Source: Cytophagales bacterium (lineage in GTDB: Bacteria; Bacteroidota; Bacteroidia; Cytophagales; CCMP332). From it: DNA of 44,727 nt. The position numbers and the translations under genes were made by a program. The notes beneath the pieces are model-generated. The model made no database searches. It saw only the letters and a program-made list of their open reading frames with translations, and was not told the origin of the DNA. Each line of letters opens with the position of its first letter. Position 1 is the first letter of the stretch. The stretch covers positions 1 through 44,727 of the forward strand of contig JANQHS010000167.1 of the NCBI GenBank assembly GCA_028282565.1, in the 5' to 3' direction. Positions 1 to 7,583 of the stretch are shown here, in pieces.

Positions 1-400
1 CATTCAAAAGGTGAATGAATACAAGATCACCTATGTGGAGATGTTCGTGGCCACCATTTGTACGCTGATCACCATAGTTCTTTATGGCTTGTTCGTGGAT
101 GGAAGCTTGCAACTTGAGTTGGTTTCACAGCTCATGGATTGGGTTTATTTGTTGATCCTGGCTGGGGTATGTACCGTTTATGCCTTCAGCGAATCTGTGG
201 AATTAATGAAAAGAATGGCACCATTTACGGTAAATCTGACCCTGAATCTTGAGCCCGTTTACGGGATCATTCTGGCCCTGATCGTTTTCGGAGAGCAGGA
301 AAAAATGTCCTGGGGATTTTACCTGGGAACCCTTTTTATACTGATCAACCTGATCGCCTATCCGTATATCAAAAGGAGAAGAAAGCTAGAGCTCTCCTGA
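1..400 (+). CDS. EamA/DMT-family transporter, C-terminal part (5' truncated)
   Basis: The reading frame is open from the window edge, so the listed GTG at 11 is internal and only the C-terminal part of the protein is present. The visible part holds about four hydrophobic segments and ends in a basic tail (KRRRK). The stretch with LNLEPVYGIILALIVFGE is characteristic of the second EamA repeat of drug/metabolite transporters: conserved N-x-E-P, then a helix ending in GE. It would be an inner-membrane permease; the substrate cannot be inferred. Its last 15 nt overlap the convergent Omp28 gene, leaving no room for a separate terminator. Confidence 0.8.
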   Translation, partial: IQKVNEYKITYVEMFVATICTLITIVLYGLFVDGSLQLELVSQLMDWVYLLILAGVCTVYAFSESVELMKRMAPFTVNLTLNLEPVYGIILALIVFGEQEKMSWGFYLGTLFILINLIAYPYIKRRRKLELS

Positions 401-1264
401 AAGATGGAAATCCTTGACCTGTAGGATAGTCTCGGTATCCTGATCGTAGAGGTAAACAACAGCATTCAGGTGATTTTGTCTCCAGCTGGGATCAAGCTGG
501 ATATCCAGATCCATGACCTCCTTATCTCCCTGTACAAAACTTGTATTGCTGATCGGCAGACCCCAGGGAAGCACCTGGGGGTTTCCGGGCAGATAGAAAT
601 TTCCCCTCAGCACGTGCTTATGCTTAAAAAATTCAATATCCTGGTTGTCGGAAAGTCTGTAATCCTTCTGCCAGGCAATGATGCTGTCTTCGGTAAGAAA
701 GGCCCCTATATTGAAATTTCCATTGATGCTTTCGTCAAACTCACATGTAGCCGTCAGGCTCAAAATATCCCCGTTTACCGACATATCCGCCGTGATCCCA
801 TAGGGAACAATTTCTTCCTGAAGTAGCTCATCCACTTTTTCAGGCCAGGCTTCGGGTAAAACAAGAGAAGTTCCCGAATACTCGATGTAATTGATCACTC
901 CCTTTGGAATTCCGGAAACCGAAGCTCCGAACTGTTCATCCAGTTCATCTCCGGTCGGGGTCCTGAAATCAAGAGTGTATTTCCCCGAAGCCGGAGGCTG
1001 AGGTTGAGCAAGGGTTCCAACATGAGCAGCAATGATCACAACCCCATGACCATAAGCGCCTTTAAGCTGCTCACCCGTTTCTCCACCAGCAGGGCAGTTT
1101 CCACATTTATGGCCGGTGAACTCCATGAGTAAAACCGACTTTGAGAAAGGGTTTACTATAGAATCACCAGGGCCGATGGGTGCGGTCACCACATTGCCAT
1201 CGACTACATCACAGGAATAAAGGAAAACGAGAAAGGAAAGCCCTAAGAATGCTCTTTTGATCAT
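386..1264 (-). CDS. Omp28-related outer membrane lipoprotein with thioredoxin-like CxxC
   Basis: A 292-residue lipoprotein. The N-terminus has a hydrophobic signal ending in a lipobox-like LYSC, so Cys18 is probably lipidated. Around residue 54 there is a thioredoxin-like start, EFTGHKCGNCPAG, with a CxxC pair as in the Omp28 family of Bacteroidota; a cis-Pro-like SGIPKG segment follows near residue 118. The C-terminal half looks like a beta-sandwich. It is the third gene of a leftward group after TlpA and DUF6029, 9 bp from the DUF6029 stop. The role is inferred: an envelope thiol-disulfide or metal-handling protein. Omp28 itself has no firm biochemical function. Confidence 0.8.
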   Translation of the reverse strand: MIKRAFLGLSFLVFLYSCDVVDGNVVTAPIGPGDSIVNPFSKSVLLMEFTGHKCGNCPAGGETGEQLKGAYGHGVVIIAAHVGTLAQPQPPASGKYTLDFRTPTGDELDEQFGASVSGIPKGVINYIEYSGTSLVLPEAWPEKVDELLQEEIVPYGITADMSVNGDILSLTATCEFDESINGNFNIGAFLTEDSIIAWQKDYRLSDNQDIEFFKHKHVLRGNFYLPGNPQVLPWGLPISNTSFVQGDKEVMDLDIQLDPSWRQNHLNAVVYLYDQDTETILQVKDFHLSGEL

Positions 1265-1273
1265 ACTGCAAAT

Positions 1274-2914
1274 TTAAAAACTACTTTGAATACTTAGAAT
1301 AAGCCCGTTGGACGCTGGCACCGGCCTACAAACTCCACCTACACAAAGTATCCCCTGACGCTGCCGTCCGTATCCCAACCTGATATTGGTGGGCCCTCTT
1401 CTATATCCAGTATAAACGGAAAAGTAGTGGTCTCTGTTGTTGGTATCCGGATTTCCGAGGTTATATTCCCAAAGTCCGCTGAAATACCAATGCGGTGCCA
1501 GGGTATATTCGGAGAGAATGGCACACCAGTCCCCGAAATCCTGTTCGGTCTGCAGATATTGAAATTCGGTTCTCAAAACCTTCTTAGAGGCAAACTTATA
1601 TTCGACCTCAACAATTCCAATATTGGTATAAACCGTTTCGGTCGTTCCATTGAAGGTCACGGGCTGAACTTCATTGTTTCTTTCCTGGTACAGGTAGTTC
1701 AAAAAGATCCTTGTCTTTCTCGAGATCTTCTTGTTGATCTCGATATTGAAATCTTCAAACCACTTGGGAGTCCCGAATTGCATAAATGGTGAAGTATAGA
1801 ATTTCCGGGTATCAAAATCCGGAGGCTGGATAGAATCCCTGACAATATCGTAGGTCTGCGACCAGTTGATGGTGACCAGGGTTCCGTATTTACCTCCAAG
1901 AGCCGAGCCTCTTTTGAAGTTGTAATAAAGATCTGCCTGCCAGGCCATTTCTCCGTTGGGATTGGTGGCATAGGCATACATGGTGGCCAATCGATAAGTG
2001 TGCTGCTTGGCCATGGCAGGGTTATAATTGATCAACAGATCGAAGCCTGTGGCCGACCTTTCACTTCTGTAATCCATGTTATCCCAACGCTTGAAGCCGG
2101 CATTGAAGCCCAGCCCGCGCTTTGAATATCCGGCATTCACAAGCAGTCCTTGACCTGGTCTGTAGTTGTTTCCGTTGATTGCAGAAGGATCATTAACCTT
2201 ATAAGCATACTCGGCATTGAGAAGAAATCCATTCTTGCTGAATGTACCTCTTAAGGCACCATTTCCCACATTTTCAGGGTAAACAAGGAAAGGGTTCTGG
2301 TCTTCCTGGAACTTGCTCACAAAGGAAGCTCCAAAGTTCAGTCCCGTTCCGCTTTCTCGTAATCCGGGAAAGAATTCGGCCATATCGATCTCGGCATCGA
2401 TCCCTCGAACGAGCCCTTCACCGAAATCCCAATAAAACCTTTGCTTTCCAACCATGGCCTTGAACATCAATCCTTTAACGGGCTTGTAACGAACCCGGAC
2501 TCCTTCATAGAAAGTGTCATAGCCAAGGTACCATTCCCAGTATGAGCGGTTGACCATTCCTGATCCGTATTGCTCATAAAAGCTACCCACGGTGATATCC
2601 AGGCCGTCATTGTTATAGCCAAAATATCGGTAGGGGATTCCAAATCCTTCCCATCGCGGGTCATAACCGAGGATTGGGGGCATGAACGCCTCAAATCTTA
2701 GTCCGCCGTAAAAATTCCCGTAGGTGAAATTGAAATTACCATAGGCATTCATGGCCATCTGTTCCGGGATGTCCGTGGCTCCTATGGCTGTATCCTCCTG
2801 ATAGGTTTGGGCATCGATCAGGAAATCGCCATGGATCTCAAGCGTTTTCCTTTCCTGGGCCATAGCAGGGCCTGACCCGAGAAAGGGTAAGAGCAGAAAG
2901 AGTAGTTTTCTCAA
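1274..2914 (-). CDS. DUF6029 family outer-membrane beta-barrel protein
   Basis: A 546-residue protein with a signal peptide ending AMAQ and no other membrane helix. Alternating aromatic-rich strands run throughout, and the C-terminus ends in SIQSSF, a typical barrel-terminating aromatic. The C-terminal CVGGVC motif is one I associate with the DUF6029 family. The start is TTG at 2914, which gives a correct signal peptide. It sits between TlpA, whose stop is 15 bp upstream, and Omp28. The function is unknown; co-location with two thioredoxin-fold proteins suggests an outer-membrane partner of a redox pathway. An alternative is a generic porin-like barrel. Confidence 0.75.
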   Translation of the reverse strand: MRKLLFLLLPFLGSGPAMAQERKTLEIHGDFLIDAQTYQEDTAIGATDIPEQMAMNAYGNFNFTYGNFYGGLRFEAFMPPILGYDPRWEGFGIPYRYFGYNNDGLDITVGSFYEQYGSGMVNRSYWEWYLGYDTFYEGVRVRYKPVKGLMFKAMVGKQRFYWDFGEGLVRGIDAEIDMAEFFPGLRESGTGLNFGASFVSKFQEDQNPFLVYPENVGNGALRGTFSKNGFLLNAEYAYKVNDPSAINGNNYRPGQGLLVNAGYSKRGLGFNAGFKRWDNMDYRSERSATGFDLLINYNPAMAKQHTYRLATMYAYATNPNGEMAWQADLYYNFKRGSALGGKYGTLVTINWSQTYDIVRDSIQPPDFDTRKFYTSPFMQFGTPKWFEDFNIEINKKISRKTRIFLNYLYQERNNEVQPVTFNGTTETVYTNIGIVEVEYKFASKKVLRTEFQYLQTEQDFGDWCAILSEYTLAPHWYFSGLWEYNLGNPDTNNRDHYFSVYTGYRRGPTNIRLGYGRQRQGILCVGGVCRPVPASNGLILSIQSSF

Positions 2915-2929
2915 ATTAGATGATGAGTC

Positions 2930-3496
2930 TTATTTAACCGATTCGCCGTTTGCCACCTTTTTTACCGCCTCGAACAAGTCTTCCTCTTCTCCCGGTGTAT
3001 ATCCATTGTGCTGCCAAACGATATTTCCACCGTTATCCAACAGGAAAGTATGGGGTACGGTCTGAACATTCAATGCCCTTCTGAAGTCAGAATTAGCGTC
3101 AATGTAAACATCATATTCCCATCCTTTTCCGTTCACGAGCGGTGCAACCTTTGGGACATTCCGACTATCGTCAATGGAAATTGCCACCAACTTCACCCCG
3201 GTTTCATCCTGCCAGTCAAAATAAACATCGTTGATATTGTTCAGTTCCTGAATACAGGGTTTGCACCAGGTGGCCCAAAATGAAATGATTGTAGGGCCTT
3301 CCGTATTTGCCACTTCAGAGCCAAAAACAGGGTTATTCTTTAGATCCCTTAACTCTACATCCGGAAGTTTCCAATTCGATTGTTCCTGAGAAAAACCTGA
3401 ATTGAAACTGAAAATCATTAGCAACGTAAGAAAGGAAAGGAAAAATGAATTGTTTTTCACGACAGTATCCGTAATTTTGAACATTGAAACCGCCAA
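2930..3496 (-). CDS. TlpA-like thiol-disulfide oxidoreductase
   Basis: A 188-residue exported thioredoxin-fold protein. The active-site motif WATWCKPC is clear, followed by the cis-Pro region TVPHTFLLD and the usual TlpA/ResA ending GYTPGEEEDLFEAV. TlpA proteins reduce or isomerise disulfides in the periplasm, for example in cytochrome c or copper-centre maturation. Start choice is uncertain. ATG 3496 gives a long n-region before the signal sequence. ATG 3484 and especially GTG 3460 (MKNNSFFLSFL...) give more natural signal peptides, and an imperfect -7 box (TATTTTGG, 3500-3493 on the minus strand) would place the transcript start downstream of 3496. It leads the TlpA-DUF6029-Omp28 group. Confidence 0.85.
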   Translation of the reverse strand: MAVSMFKITDTVVKNNSFFLSFLTLLMIFSFNSGFSQEQSNWKLPDVELRDLKNNPVFGSEVANTEGPTIISFWATWCKPCIQELNNINDVYFDWQDETGVKLVAISIDDSRNVPKVAPLVNGKGWEYDVYIDANSDFRRALNVQTVPHTFLLDNGGNIVWQHNGYTPGEEEDLFEAVKKVANGESVK

Positions 3497-3514
3497 AATA
3501 GGGCAGTTTAGGAT

Positions 3515-3522
3515 TATATTTG
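3515..3522 (+). promoter_or_regulatory. Bacteroidota-type -7 promoter box (TATATTTG) for the T9SS gene
   Basis: TATATTTG matches the TAnnTTTG -7 consensus of the Bacteroidota primary sigma factor and lies 8 bp before the ATG at 3531. No good TTTG is visible at -33. It implies a very short leader and supports 3531 as the start instead of the upstream ATG at 3402 in the ORF track. Confidence 0.5.
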
Positions 3523-3530
3523 GAAGTCAA

Positions 3531-4253
3531 ATGAAGAAAATATTACTCACATCACTTTTCGGACTATTTTTAAGTGCATTTGTTTCAGGACAAAGCATCA
3601 ATGTCGTATACCAATCGGGTGATACTGTCACCGGACCAAACTGGAACGACATTACCAGCTATATTCATTTTGAAAATAGCGCCTCAGGAGCTGAAGGGTA
3701 CCTCGCAGAAAAAGAAGATCTAAGCCTGGCTTCAGGGCATTCTTCATATTTCTGCTGGGGAGTAGATTGCTATCCGACCTCAGTGTTTCTGGCAACAGAT
3801 ACCGTTGACCTGAATCCCGGACAAGTAGATTCGACCTTTATCGGATACCTTCAGCCTTATGATTCGCAATTGATCGGCCACGATGGAGTGAGCACTATCC
3901 GTTACCGCATCTTCAATATCGCAGATACTTCCGACAAGTTTGAAAAGGTGATCGTATATGTCGCTGGAGAACAAACTTCCCTGTCGCATACCAATGTCAA
4001 CGGCTCAGACATTTATGTCTATCCAAATCCGGCTTCAAGCGATCTAAACCTTGTTTTTGAGAATCTCAATGGTGCTCAAGGGAAAGTGATCATCAGAAAT
4101 ATGCTCGGATCAAGGGTACTTTCAAAAGAAGTAGCTCTGGAGGGAAATTTTGTTCAGTTGGACCTGAACAACATTCCAAACGGAGTTTATCTGTACACGC
4201 TGGAAGTAGATGGTTTACCCGTCGTGACCAAAAAGTTTTCCGTAAGGAAATAG
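3531..4253 (+). CDS. T9SS type A sorting-domain protein (secreted or surface)
   Basis: A 240-residue protein. The signal peptide is MKKILLTSLFGLFLSAFVSG, followed by a beta-rich domain of about 135 residues and then a clear type IX secretion C-terminal domain. That domain begins at IYVYPNPASSDLNL and ends with NGVYLYTLEVDG...KKFSVRK. T9SS cargo is exported by Sec, crosses the outer membrane by T9SS and is usually anchored to A-LPS or released. The central domain contains CWGVDC, two close cysteines, noteworthy beside divergent TlpA and Omp28 genes. The ORF-track start at 3402 is rejected because it lies inside tlpA and upstream of the signal peptide and promoter box. The central domain is not recognised. 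Confidence 0.85.
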   Translation: MKKILLTSLFGLFLSAFVSGQSINVVYQSGDTVTGPNWNDITSYIHFENSASGAEGYLAEKEDLSLASGHSSYFCWGVDCYPTSVFLATDTVDLNPGQVDSTFIGYLQPYDSQLIGHDGVSTIRYRIFNIADTSDKFEKVIVYVAGEQTSLSHTNVNGSDIYVYPNPASSDLNLVFENLNGAQGKVIIRNMLGSRVLSKEVALEGNFVQLDLNNIPNGVYLYTLEVDGLPVVTKKFSVRK

Positions 4254-4329: not shown

Positions 4330-5139
4330 ATGTCAAAATCAGGCATTTTTATATTGCCCATATTGTTGATCGCTTTTGTCTCCTGCAGCAAATTCCAAAG
4401 GCTTCAGAAATCCAACAGCCTGGTGGAAAAGTATGACGGAGCGGTAAAGTATTACACCGATGGTGACTTTTACCGGGCGGGATTGCTGCTGGAAGAACTG
4501 ATCCCTCTATTGAGAGGCAAGGCTGAGGCAGAACAGGCTGAATTCTACTATGCCTATTGCCAGTACTATCAAAGGCAACTTTTGCTATCCGCATATTACT
4601 TCCGAAAATTCTATACCACCTATCCAAGAAGTCAGTTTGCAGAAGAATCCATGTACATGGAATGCCGATCTCTATTTGAATTGGCTCCCCCCGATCGCCT
4701 TGACCAGTCCAATTCCGTGGAAGCTCTGGAATCTATCCAAACATTCCTGAGAAGATATCCAAGCTCCCAGTACATTGATCAGATCAATGCCTATGCTGCC
4801 GGGCTGAACGAGAAGATCGATATTAAAAACTATAACAACGCCGAGCTCTACTTCAAGCTGCGGCGGTATAAATCAGCGGTAGTAGCACTGGAAAACTATA
4901 GAAAGGATTATCCGGACTCTCCTCATCTTGAGGAGGCTACCTTCATGAAATTCAAATCACAGTACGAATACGCCCGAAGGAGCGTAAAAAACAAACAGTT
5001 GAAAAGATTTTATGAAGCTTTGGAATATTACCGGAACTTTGTAGATCGGTATCCAAACTCTGCGTTCCTGAAGGACGCAGAAAACATCTACGACAACTGC
5101 ATTAACAGAATTAGTTCATTAAAAAATTCAAAAGGATGA
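4330..5139 (+). CDS. bamD: Outer membrane protein assembly factor BamD
   Basis: A 269-residue lipoprotein. The signal sequence ends in a lipobox-like FVSC, so Cys20 is the likely lipidated residue. Tandem TPR-like helical pairs follow, with the BamD/YfiO signatures AYYFRKFYTTYPRSQFAEES and DYPDSPHLEEA. BamD is the essential lipoprotein partner of BamA and helps insert beta-barrels into the outer membrane from the periplasmic side. The length fits the family. It is first in the bamD-rpoZ-coaBC-DUF4835-recN run and its stop overlaps the rpoZ ATG by 4 nt, so coupled translation is likely. Confidence 0.93.
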   Translation: MSKSGIFILPILLIAFVSCSKFQRLQKSNSLVEKYDGAVKYYTDGDFYRAGLLLEELIPLLRGKAEAEQAEFYYAYCQYYQRQLLLSAYYFRKFYTTYPRSQFAEESMYMECRSLFELAPPDRLDQSNSVEALESIQTFLRRYPSSQYIDQINAYAAGLNEKIDIKNYNNAELYFKLRRYKSAVVALENYRKDYPDSPHLEEATFMKFKSQYEYARRSVKNKQLKRFYEALEYYRNFVDRYPNSAFLKDAENIYDNCINRISSLKNSKG

Positions 5140-5471
5140 GCAACACACCAACATCAATTGTCACAAGAGATATGGTCGACCTGATCAAGGAGACAGGAAA
5201 CATTTATGAATCGATTGTGATCGTTACAAGAAGGGCGAAGCAGATCGCAATCAAGGAAAAGGAGGAATTGAATTCCAAACTTGCTGAATTTGCAACCACT
5301 GTGGATTCCCTGGAAGAGGTCTTCGAAAACAAAGAGCAGATCGAGATTTCAAGGTATTACGAAAGGATGCCAAAACCTTCGGCCAAGGCCATAGAAGAGT
5401 TTAAAGAAGGAAAGGTCATGTTCAGATATCCGACAGAGGAGGACATGGAGGAAAATGAGCTCCTCATCTGA
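5136..5471 (+). CDS. rpoZ: DNA-directed RNA polymerase omega subunit, Bacteroidota type
   Basis: A 111-residue cytoplasmic protein. The segment ETGNIYESIVIVTRRAKQI matches the omega fold that clamps the beta-prime C-terminus, and the tail with YERMPKPSAKAIEEF is typical of the Bacteroidota form. It assists RNA polymerase assembly. The start overlaps bamD by 4 nt and its end overlaps coaBC by 17 nt, indicating one transcript. The same gene order is, to my knowledge, widespread in the phylum. Confidence 0.9.
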   Translation: MSNTPTSIVTRDMVDLIKETGNIYESIVIVTRRAKQIAIKEKEELNSKLAEFATTVDSLEEVFENKEQIEISRYYERMPKPSAKAIEEFKEGKVMFRYPTEEDMEENELLI

Positions 5472-6687
5472 CAGAACCGGCAATAATATACTTCTTGGGG
5501 TTTGCGGAGGAATTGCAGCATATAAGTCCGCTTATCTCGTCAGGGAGTTCGTGAAAAATGGCTTTGATGTCAAAGTGATCATGACAGAATCCGCGAAGGA
5601 TTTTGTTGGGCCCCTGACCTTTTCTACCCTTTCGAAAAATCCGGTATACTCTGAAATGTTCAATTCTCAGACGGGGGAATGGACAAATCATATCGATCTT
5701 GGCAAATGGGCGGATCTCTTCGTGATCGCCCCTGCCACGGCCAATACCTTGGCAAAGGCAGCACATGGCCAGGCGGACAATCTCCTATTAACCTCTTATC
5801 TATCTGCTACCTGTCCGGTACTCTGGGCTCCGGCAATGGACCTTGACATGTACAGACATAGGAGCACCCAGCTAAATATCAAAACCCTTGAAAAAGCCGG
5901 TGATCACATTATTATGCCTGAATCAGGGGAACTTGCCAGCGGATTAACAGGCCAGGGAAGGCTTCCGGAGCCGGAAAAGATCTTCAAGGTATGCCAGGAT
6001 CTGCTAAAAAAGAATAAACCGGGATCAAAAAAAAAAAGGGCTGAGAAAAGGGTTCTGGTAACCGCAGGCCCAACCTTTGAACCTATCGATCCGGTTCGAT
6101 TCTTAGGAAATCGCTCCTCAGGGAAAATGGGATTTGCCATAGCGGAATCGCTTGCGGAAAACGGCTATCTGGTTGATCTGGTCACCGGCCCGTCAAATCT
6201 GGAAGCCTCAGATCCCAACATTGAGGTGATCCGTGTGGAATCCTCGGATCAAATGGAAAAAGAAGCTCTCAAGGCCTTTAAAAAATGTTCCGGAGCGATA
6301 CTTTCAGCGGCTGTCGCAGATTTCAAACCTGCGAAAGTACTAGCTCAAAAGAGAAAAAAAACGAAAGGGGAAAACCTTGACCTTAAACTGATACAGACAG
6401 TCGACATCGCCCTTTCCCTGAAAAAAATAAAATCTCCCGGGCAGTTTGTCGTTGGATTTGCATTGGAGACAGAGAACGAGATCAAAAATGCCAGGTCAAA
6501 AATGAACAGAAAAGGATTCGATATGATCGTATTGAATTCGCTGAATGACAAAGGAGCCGGCTTTCAGTCCGATACCAACAAGATCACCATTTTGAAACCC
6601 GGCAATGCAAAACCCCTCGTATTTGACCTAAAGTCAAAAAGAGAAGTCGCTGAGGACATTGTAGCCCAAATAAATTCCCTGAAGTGA
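5455..6687 (+). CDS. coaBC: Bifunctional phosphopantothenoylcysteine decarboxylase / phosphopantothenate-cysteine ligase
   Basis: A 410-residue protein for two steps of coenzyme A synthesis: ligation of cysteine to 4'-phosphopantothenate, then decarboxylation. The N-terminal flavin-dependent decarboxylase (about residues 8-185) shows GVCGGIAAYKSAYLVREF, APATANTLAKAAHGQADN and PAMDLDMY. The C-terminal ligase (about 198-405) begins VTAGPTFEPIDPVRFLGN and has NRSSGKMG and SAAVADFKP. The linker between them is lysine-rich and encoded by an uninterrupted A11 tract (see repeat at 6027). The length is normal for the fused enzyme. Its stop overlaps the GTG start of the DUF4835 gene. Confidence 0.95.
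   Translation: MSSSSDRTGNNILLGVCGGIAAYKSAYLVREFVKNGFDVKVIMTESAKDFVGPLTFSTLSKNPVYSEMFNSQTGEWTNHIDLGKWADLFVIAPATANTLAKAAHGQADNLLLTSYLSATCPVLWAPAMDLDMYRHRSTQLNIKTLEKAGDHIIMPESGELASGLTGQGRLPEPEKIFKVCQDLLKKNKPGSKKKRAEKRVLVTAGPTFEPIDPVRFLGNRSSGKMGFAIAESLAENGYLVDLVTGPSNLEASDPNIEVIRVESSDQMEKEALKAFKKCSGAILSAAVADFKPAKVLAQKRKKTKGENLDLKLIQTVDIALSLKKIKSPGQFVVGFALETENEIKNARSKMNRKGFDMIVLNSLNDKGAGFQSDTNKITILKPGNAKPLVFDLKSKREVAEDIVAQINSLK
6027..6037 (+). repeat. A11 homopolymer at the coaBC domain junction
   Basis: Eleven consecutive A residues encode part of SKKKR in the interdomain linker. One extra A gives KKKKG followed at once by TGA; one fewer gives about ten codons, then TAA. Either slip would release the N-terminal decarboxylase domain without the ligase domain. 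Confidence 0.85.
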
Positions 6688-7583
6688 AAAGGATAGTTCA
6701 AATATTGCTGATCTGCATTCTCCCTTCTCCCCTCTTATCACAGGATCTGAATTCGAGGGTCGTGATCAACGCAGATGGAGTGGAACTCAGCGATAAGACC
6801 ATATTCACTGAAATGCAGGTGGCGATCAAAGAGTTCGTTGATAATACAAAATGGACAAATGAAGTCTTTGGTCCTGAGGAGCGGATCAAGGTGAACATAT
6901 TCATCACCATCACGGAAATGCCCTCCCTAAACAACTTCAGGGCAAAAACCCAAATAACAACCGCAAGACCGGTATACGGGGCCAGTTACGAATCCTTGTT
7001 GTTCAATTATTTGGACGAAGAGTGGTTGTTCAGCTATGCTCCTTCACAGCCATTGGTTTTTTCGGAGAATCGCTACGACAATGAGTTGACCTCCCTGCTG
7101 GCCTTCTTTTGTTTTGTGGTCATTGGCCTGGATTTCGACTCCTTTGGCAACCTTTCGGGAAAGCCGTATTATCAAAGGGCACAAAACGTACTGATCAATG
7201 CCCAACCCGTTGGAAACCCTGGATGGCAAAGCTTCGGAAGCCCAAAAAGCCGTTTCTGGATTCAGGAAAACCTAACCAACCAGGTTTTTGAACCTTTCAG
7301 AACCAGCATTTATCAGTACCACCGTAACGGATTGGACATCATGGTAGAGCAACCCGATCAGGCAAGGCAGAATATTGCCAACAGCCTTACCCTGATCCAG
7401 GGAGTCGTCAAGCAGGTTCCCCTCTCTTCACTCATCAACTTTTACCTTGATGGAAAACGATCCGAAATTATCGACATCTATCAGGAGGGTCAGCCCGAGG
7501 TCAAAAAACAAGCTCATGATATCCTGATAGAGATCGACCCAACGAAAACGGACGAATACCAAAAAATTATCAAAGGCTCCTAA
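6684..7583 (+). CDS. DUF4835 family exported protein
   Basis: A 299-residue protein with a signal peptide ending around LLSQ. The start is GTG at 6684, overlapping the coaBC TGA in the pattern GTGA. It matches the DUF4835 family known from Bacteroidota, where it commonly sits between coaBC and recN; the repeated pattern of aromatic residues in ASYESLLFNYLDEEWLF and the NARPVYG-like segment (here TARPVYGA) fit. No catalytic motif is visible. The function is unknown; envelope biogenesis is a guess from its company with bamD. Confidence 0.8.
   Translation: MKRIVQILLICILPSPLLSQDLNSRVVINADGVELSDKTIFTEMQVAIKEFVDNTKWTNEVFGPEERIKVNIFITITEMPSLNNFRAKTQITTARPVYGASYESLLFNYLDEEWLFSYAPSQPLVFSENRYDNELTSLLAFFCFVVIGLDFDSFGNLSGKPYYQRAQNVLINAQPVGNPGWQSFGSPKSRFWIQENLTNQVFEPFRTSIYQYHRNGLDIMVEQPDQARQNIANSLTLIQGVVKQVPLSSLINFYLDGKRSEIIDIYQEGQPEVKKQAHDILIEIDPTKTDEYQKIIKGS

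Follow-up and report, generated by a model that had tools for sequence, protein, structure and literature searches.

Thiol-dependent outer-membrane barrels, periplasmic thiol-disulfide oxidoreductases and the secreted protein PorA of the type IX secretion system (T9SS) are the closest described counterparts of the locus considered here, four genes at positions 386-4253 of a 44,727-nucleotide stretch of DNA from a Cytophagales bacterium (contig JANQHS010000167.1, positions 1-44,727; referred to as the window). LptD, a large outer-membrane barrel, has cysteines that need the periplasmic thiol enzymes DsbA and DsbC. In Porphyromonas gingivalis, PorA (PG2172, PGN_0123) (PMC8754138; PMC7712824) is a T9SS cargo that acts upstream of PorXY-SigP via an unknown mediator, and further factors must join it to PorY according to the authors of that work (PMC7712824); it is also a main Sov-PorV partner (PMC8754138), still arrives at the cell surface, by an unknown route, when sov or porV is mutated (PMC7712824; PMC8754138), and has been described as restricted to Porphyromonas (BLAST E-value <1e-4; PMC7712824). 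Nearby in the same genome, PG2173 is Omp28 (PMC9722745), and PG2174 was detected in outer-membrane vesicles (PMC4335976). The window encodes a TlpA-type thioredoxin, a DUF6029 barrel, an Omp28 lipoprotein, and a T9SS-tailed protein that we regard as a remote PorA relative. The four genes and their motifs (WCKPC, CVGGVC, CGNC, and CWGVDC), described in a first-pass annotation as covering three compartments, were confirmed by sequence and Pfam, and their products are predicted for the periplasm, the outer membrane, and the surface. We give an even chance to the reading that these genes constitute a thiol-disulfide module in the envelope of Bacteroidota that is linked to the T9SS; judged from sequence, a thiol-disulfide function is well supported.

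Scans for DUF6029 detected it in 27/195 genomes from the order to which the window belongs and in 80/297 from the phylum. Neighborhoods were read in two sets, the first of ∼80 loci with flanks from an even draw and the second of 80 loci from public genomes, mostly uncultured Bacteroidota and Hymenobacter, which are the best 80 matches to a closer set of 20 DUF6029 proteins and are biased to close relatives. TlpA directly adjoins DUF6029 in 59/75 testable loci of the first set and 74/76 of the second, and separation of the genes in most genomes, named beforehand as a sign that no module exists, was not seen. Omp28, scored with profiles built from the adjacent proteins, directly follows DUF6029 in 43/74 and 73/78 loci, respectively, and a PorA-like gene lies within ∼4 kb in 25/63 and 27/58. 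Co-occurrence was counted in 395 Bacteroidia genomes, drawn evenly: a close homolog of the thioredoxin was present in 275 and DUF6029 in 277; both were found in 268, the thioredoxin alone in seven, DUF6029 alone in nine, and neither in 111 (phi 0.90; Fisher p ∼1e-77, with no correction for common descent). Searches for the PorA-like domain detected it in 222 of these genomes, 216 of which encode DUF6029. Within the window’s order, all 27 DUF6029-positive genomes carry the thioredoxin and 16 the PorA-like domain, and TlpA and DUF6029 are both kept even where the two genes are found on separate contigs or at a long distance from each other (e.g., genomes G092 and G037). These co-occurrence counts define a core of thioredoxin and barrel and a wider set that includes PorA and Omp28, and they support the view that the four genes form a real, phylum-wide module.

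The DUF6029 protein (1274..2914, minus strand) matches PF19494 across its full length (544 bits; cut-off, 27) and is predicted by AlphaFold2 to form an outer-membrane beta-barrel of ∼24 strands (mean predicted local distance difference test score, pLDDT, 93; predicted template modeling score 0.88). Its CVGGVC motif (C524-C529; 1328..1345, minus strand) is kept as a cysteine pair in 155 of 156 proteins of ≥480 amino acids, the exception (L113) being a disrupted frame, and C524 and C529 are two of only nine invariant columns among 50 DUF6029 proteins that range down to 18% identity. No second cysteine column is common to DUF6029 proteins, and C524-C529 is the only conserved pair of the barrel. 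In the model, strands 521-525 and 528-532 pair over a Gly-Gly turn with C524 facing C529. This hairpin, between the last two strands, would form the last extracellular loop, because both ends of an outer-membrane barrel are periplasmic and the short turns and long loops mostly alternate accordingly; the placement derives from the predicted secondary structure.

The hairpin geometry would suit a cross-strand disulfide, and a serious, if somewhat unlikely, account is that the thiol enzymes serve maturation only: TlpA, with Omp28, would act in the periplasm to form or isomerize disulfides in DUF6029 and PorA ahead of their insertion or secretion, like DsbA and DsbC with LptD, the pairs being structural and the job of the barrel unrelated to electrons. 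Maturation would explain both the presence of the thioredoxin alongside the barrel where their genes are unlinked and the need for a periplasmic partner of a barrel whose pair is extracellular once folded; however, the thioredoxin-like lipoprotein and, at many loci, a T9SS-tailed thioredoxin-like protein suggest thiol chemistry at the surface too, and the regulatory role of PorA is left unexplained. LptD and DUF6029 are alike as large outer-membrane barrels with cysteines reliant, in the latter case putatively, on periplasmic thiol enzymes, whereas DUF6029 carries one cysteine pair in a single hairpin and has a dedicated linked thioredoxin. A different proposal can be drawn from the only mention of DUF6029 found in the open-access literature, a report that HHpred matched some Wzi-like barrels with this family (PMC9603273), namely that DUF6029 exports a polymer as a polysaccharide porin and that its cysteines are structural. 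We consider this very improbable, as polysaccharide export genes were not recurrent neighbors in the loci read, and the thioredoxins and PorA would have no explanation.

The thiol-disulfide reading, by comparison, draws on two complete thioredoxin-like sites, the first of which belongs to the TlpA/ResA-type protein (2930..3496, minus strand; likely start at ATG 3484, the start kept in most relatives). This protein matches the Pfam AhpC-TSA/Redoxin families (AhpC-TSA, 60.5 bits) and has a close homolog in the Protein Data Bank (PDB), entry 2m72 (E 8e-46), which we take to be PG_2175. Its CKPC active site (C78-C81; 3254..3265, minus strand) and cis-proline (cis-Pro148) are kept in all 137 TlpA neighbors by alignment columns, and together with an export signal they give it the hallmarks of the TlpA/ResA group. 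Scores against the NCBIfam models for ResA (72 bits; cut-off, 170) and DsbE (45.8; cut-off, 123) identify it as a TlpA-like protein that is neither ResA nor DsbE. The secreted thioredoxin fold, CxPC, and cis-proline are shared with the ResA/TlpA/CcmG oxidoreductases; the module TlpA differs in being mostly present in one copy per genome and in being tied to DUF6029 rather than to cytochrome maturation. An inner-membrane donor of the DsbD/CcdA type, such as would supply reductant to TlpA in a trans-envelope relay of the DsbD/ScsB kind, was not recognized among the neighbors in the loci read, and no genome-wide search for one was made. The Cytophaga disulfide oxidoreductase CHU_1165, encountered as a citation, was also considered and could not be connected with the module.

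The second site lies in the Omp28-family outer-membrane lipoprotein (386..1264, minus strand; PF11551, 61.6 bits; cut-off, 34.9), the N-terminal part of which is thioredoxin-like. Its CxxC (CGNC in the window, C54-C57; 1094..1105, minus strand) is present in 114/114 Omp28 neighbors, with a cis-Pro-like column (cis-Pro120) in 114/114 and the lipobox cysteine (Cys18) in 111/111 by alignment columns. The window protein scores 92.8 bits against the lipoprotein subfamily model NF033782, below its cut-off of 150. An extra cysteine column occurs in 70/114 of these neighbors, where the window has leucine (residue 266), and a weak match to the Omp28-related selenoprotein model NF045500 (18.8 bits; cut-off, 200) hints at redox-active relatives of Omp28. 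Because of these two thioredoxin-like sites, a barrel with a pair as its only conserved cysteines, a secreted protein with a cysteine pair as its only invariant residues, and co-inheritance, thiol-disulfide exchange within the module is the best-supported function.

The secreted protein (3531..4253, plus strand) has a signal peptide in its sequence, an immunoglobulin (Ig)-like domain, and a C-terminal T9SS sorting domain (4017..4238, plus strand; Por_Secre_tail, PF18962, 44.4 bits, E 2e-11), and was modeled by AlphaFold2 with a pLDDT of 86. The two cysteines of its CWGVDC motif (C75-C80; 3753..3770, plus strand) are the sole invariant columns among 26 secreted domains with 12-29% identity to that of the window. 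Loss of the cysteines from the barrel or the T9SS protein, the other finding that the first-pass annotation would have counted against a module, was thus seen in neither, and to judge by the alignments the conservation in both is far beyond chance. The spacing is exceptional in one PorA-like protein (L096:6430-7182), where the loop separating the cysteines (CWGSSTDPFGGTC) far exceeds the usual CxxxC or CxxxxC in length. Metal handling is another conceivable role of the pairs, since soft metals can be bound by two cysteines placed close together and certain TlpA-family proteins serve copper centers. Passage of a metal across the outer membrane, raised as an option beforehand, nevertheless found no support: conserved methionine or histidine is absent beside the pairs in the barrel and the PorA-like domain, no metal-related neighbor was recognized by inspection in the loci read, and this explanation is barely credible.

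With a tail-free profile of the secreted family, the best PDB entry was the N-terminal domain of PorA, 6kjk (E 0.0034), in which CFGQC aligns with the CWGxC of the family; the reverse check scored 23.6 bits, and one single sequence reached E 1e-4 when a small set was searched. A Foldseek comparison with the complete model recovered generic matches to two-domain Ig proteins and added no support for homology to PorA, so the assignment draws on profile search and gene order. In Bacteroidales the genes run TlpA-DUF6029-Omp28-PorA, and at 11 Bacteroidales-type loci, picked by the thioredoxins closest to 2m72 and assigned to the order by us, the gene after TlpA-DUF6029-Omp28 always encodes a small secreted protein (214-276 amino acids); five of these were matched by profile, and the other six, read by eye, have a close cysteine pair. 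Searches for Porphyromonas-like genomes gave thioredoxins with as much as 71% identity to 2m72; P. gingivalis itself was not among them, and its PG2172-PG2175 order is taken from the literature and from relatives, with PG2174 presumably being the DUF6029 protein. The secreted protein would thus belong to the PorA family as a distant relative, and both lines of evidence suggest that this family extends far beyond Porphyromonas. Shared with the P. gingivalis locus are a small protein that has a T9SS tail, an Ig-like domain, and a close cysteine pair (CFGQC in PorA), an Omp28 neighbor (PG2173), and, in Bacteroidales relatives, the TlpA-DUF6029-Omp28-PorA order (PMC7712824; PMC9722745); outside Bacteroidales, by contrast, the PorA-like gene is mostly divergent from tlpA or near sprA. 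A dependence on PorXY-SigP is known for the P. gingivalis member only.

The translocon gene SprA was found in 80/80 module-positive genomes tested and also in 73/80 module-negative genomes; the module therefore accompanies the T9SS, while the T9SS needs no module. A core component would be present wherever the T9SS is, which the 73 SprA-carrying genomes without the module contradict, and absent where the T9SS is absent, which agrees with the 80/80, and the module is at most a T9SS accessory. SprA lies within 15 kb of a PorA-like or DUF6029 gene in 21/77 genomes from 13 families, the safe figure being at least 20 because one (G603) used an approximate position from a TlpA match. In five such loci (L250-L254), SprA is accompanied by a RuvA-like gene, in some by one resembling malic enzyme, and usually by a Sir2-like gene (names by inspection), with a profile-called PorA-like gene next in four of five and the thiol genes in four of five; in one genome (G573, L253), PorA is with SprA and DUF6029 is ∼600 kb away. 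PorA family identity and SprA linkage together place the module with T9SS biology. The first-pass statement that no function was established needs amending for the T9SS cargo, since the P. gingivalis member of the PorA family has published roles in T9SS regulation and Sov-PorV binding (PMC7712824; PMC8754138).

The surface arrival of PorA in sov and porV mutants could alternatively mean that the DUF6029 barrel is a T9SS-independent outlet for, or receptor of, the PorA-family protein, with the thioredoxins holding the PorA cysteines export-competent. The large size of DUF6029 (∼24 strands) and its co-inheritance with PorA would fit, and usher barrels are among its Foldseek matches; however, these matches are all of low similarity (template modeling score 0.33-0.48) and unspecific, including many other large barrels, and 61 of the 277 DUF6029 genomes lack a detectable PorA-like domain. 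Such an export role appears quite improbable, although it would account for a good part of the observations, as would dedicated maturation of the disulfides.

In the favored reading of a thiol-disulfide module, the dedicated periplasmic TlpA and the thioredoxin-like outer-membrane lipoprotein Omp28 would exchange dithiols with the DUF6029 barrel, which would display its CxGGxC hairpin on the outer face, and also with the PorA-type protein located at the T9SS translocon, the conserved CxxxC of which would be set or sensed by the module. PorA would be the output, acting on T9SS function or on PorXY-SigP regulation as in P. gingivalis; both the mutual exchange among these cysteines and this role of PorA are what we infer from the assembled evidence. 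Several points weigh against this reading. The barrel pair is predicted to be extracellular, beyond the direct reach of periplasmic TlpA after folding; homology to PorA is remote; the co-occurrence counts take no account of ancestry; some Omp28 and PorA-like genes are located elsewhere; and one family (f2) encodes TlpA and DUF6029 at separate sites and lacks any detectable PorA-like domain, so PorA is not invariably the partner. Given the published role of PorA and the remark of its authors on further factors (PMC7712824), the conserved neighbors TlpA, DUF6029, and Omp28 are good candidates for the missing connection of surface PorA to PorY. A bolder, unlikely form of the idea, in line with the passage of reducing equivalents proposed in the first-pass annotation, is a dedicated redox chain across the outer membrane, from TlpA and Omp28 via the DUF6029 surface dithiol to surface PorA, that would either report on or set the type IX translocon’s state and be the missing link from PorA to the inner-membrane kinase PorY. 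Should the PorA family span the phylum and be inherited together with TlpA, barrel, and Omp28, the PorA route becomes directly testable in harmless bacteria by single deletions and cysteine mutants; a thiol-disulfide module, if true, would also place DUF6029 in a functional context for the first time and suggest that the Bacteroidota outer membrane is a site of controlled thiol chemistry.

Upstream of TlpA, many loci encode a long protein that bears a T9SS tail and a comparable thioredoxin-like motif, frequently CGPC; at L141, L151, L157, L161, L177, and L203 these are of ∼600-700 amino acids with an Omp28/thioredoxin-like CxxC. The T9SS tail would place this further thioredoxin-like domain at the cell surface, and these proteins are possibly a surface thioredoxin belonging to the module. 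P. gingivalis HBP35 likewise has a thioredoxin-like domain taken to the surface by the T9SS (PMC2907840; PMC7712824), but it lies outside the module; the likeness drawn here is in that feature. In Lentimicrobium-type loci, the genes upstream of TlpA look like mannose-6-phosphate isomerases by inspection, which is taken as incidental.

Within the window, TlpA, DUF6029, and Omp28 are transcribed in that order on the minus strand with spacers of 15 and 9 bp, and the T9SS-tailed gene diverges from this row on the plus strand. Its listed open reading frame (3402-4253) opens at TTG 3402, within tlpA; the true start is almost certainly ATG 3531, where a predicted signal peptide (MKKILLTSLFGLFLSAFVSGQS) begins, and with tlpA starting at ATG 3484 the divergent starts are ∼46 bp apart. 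The intervening 3485-3530 contains a Bacteroidota-type TAnnTTTG site at 3515-3522, only 8 bp ahead of the PorA-like ATG, and the leader would therefore be very short. Adjoining the PorA-like gene, 4330-7583 encodes BamD, RpoZ-like and CoaBC-like open reading frames (both by inspection), and PorD. PorD binds PorW in P. gingivalis; in the window, this T9SS component (NF052317, 321 bits) lies ∼2.4 kb from the PorA-like gene.

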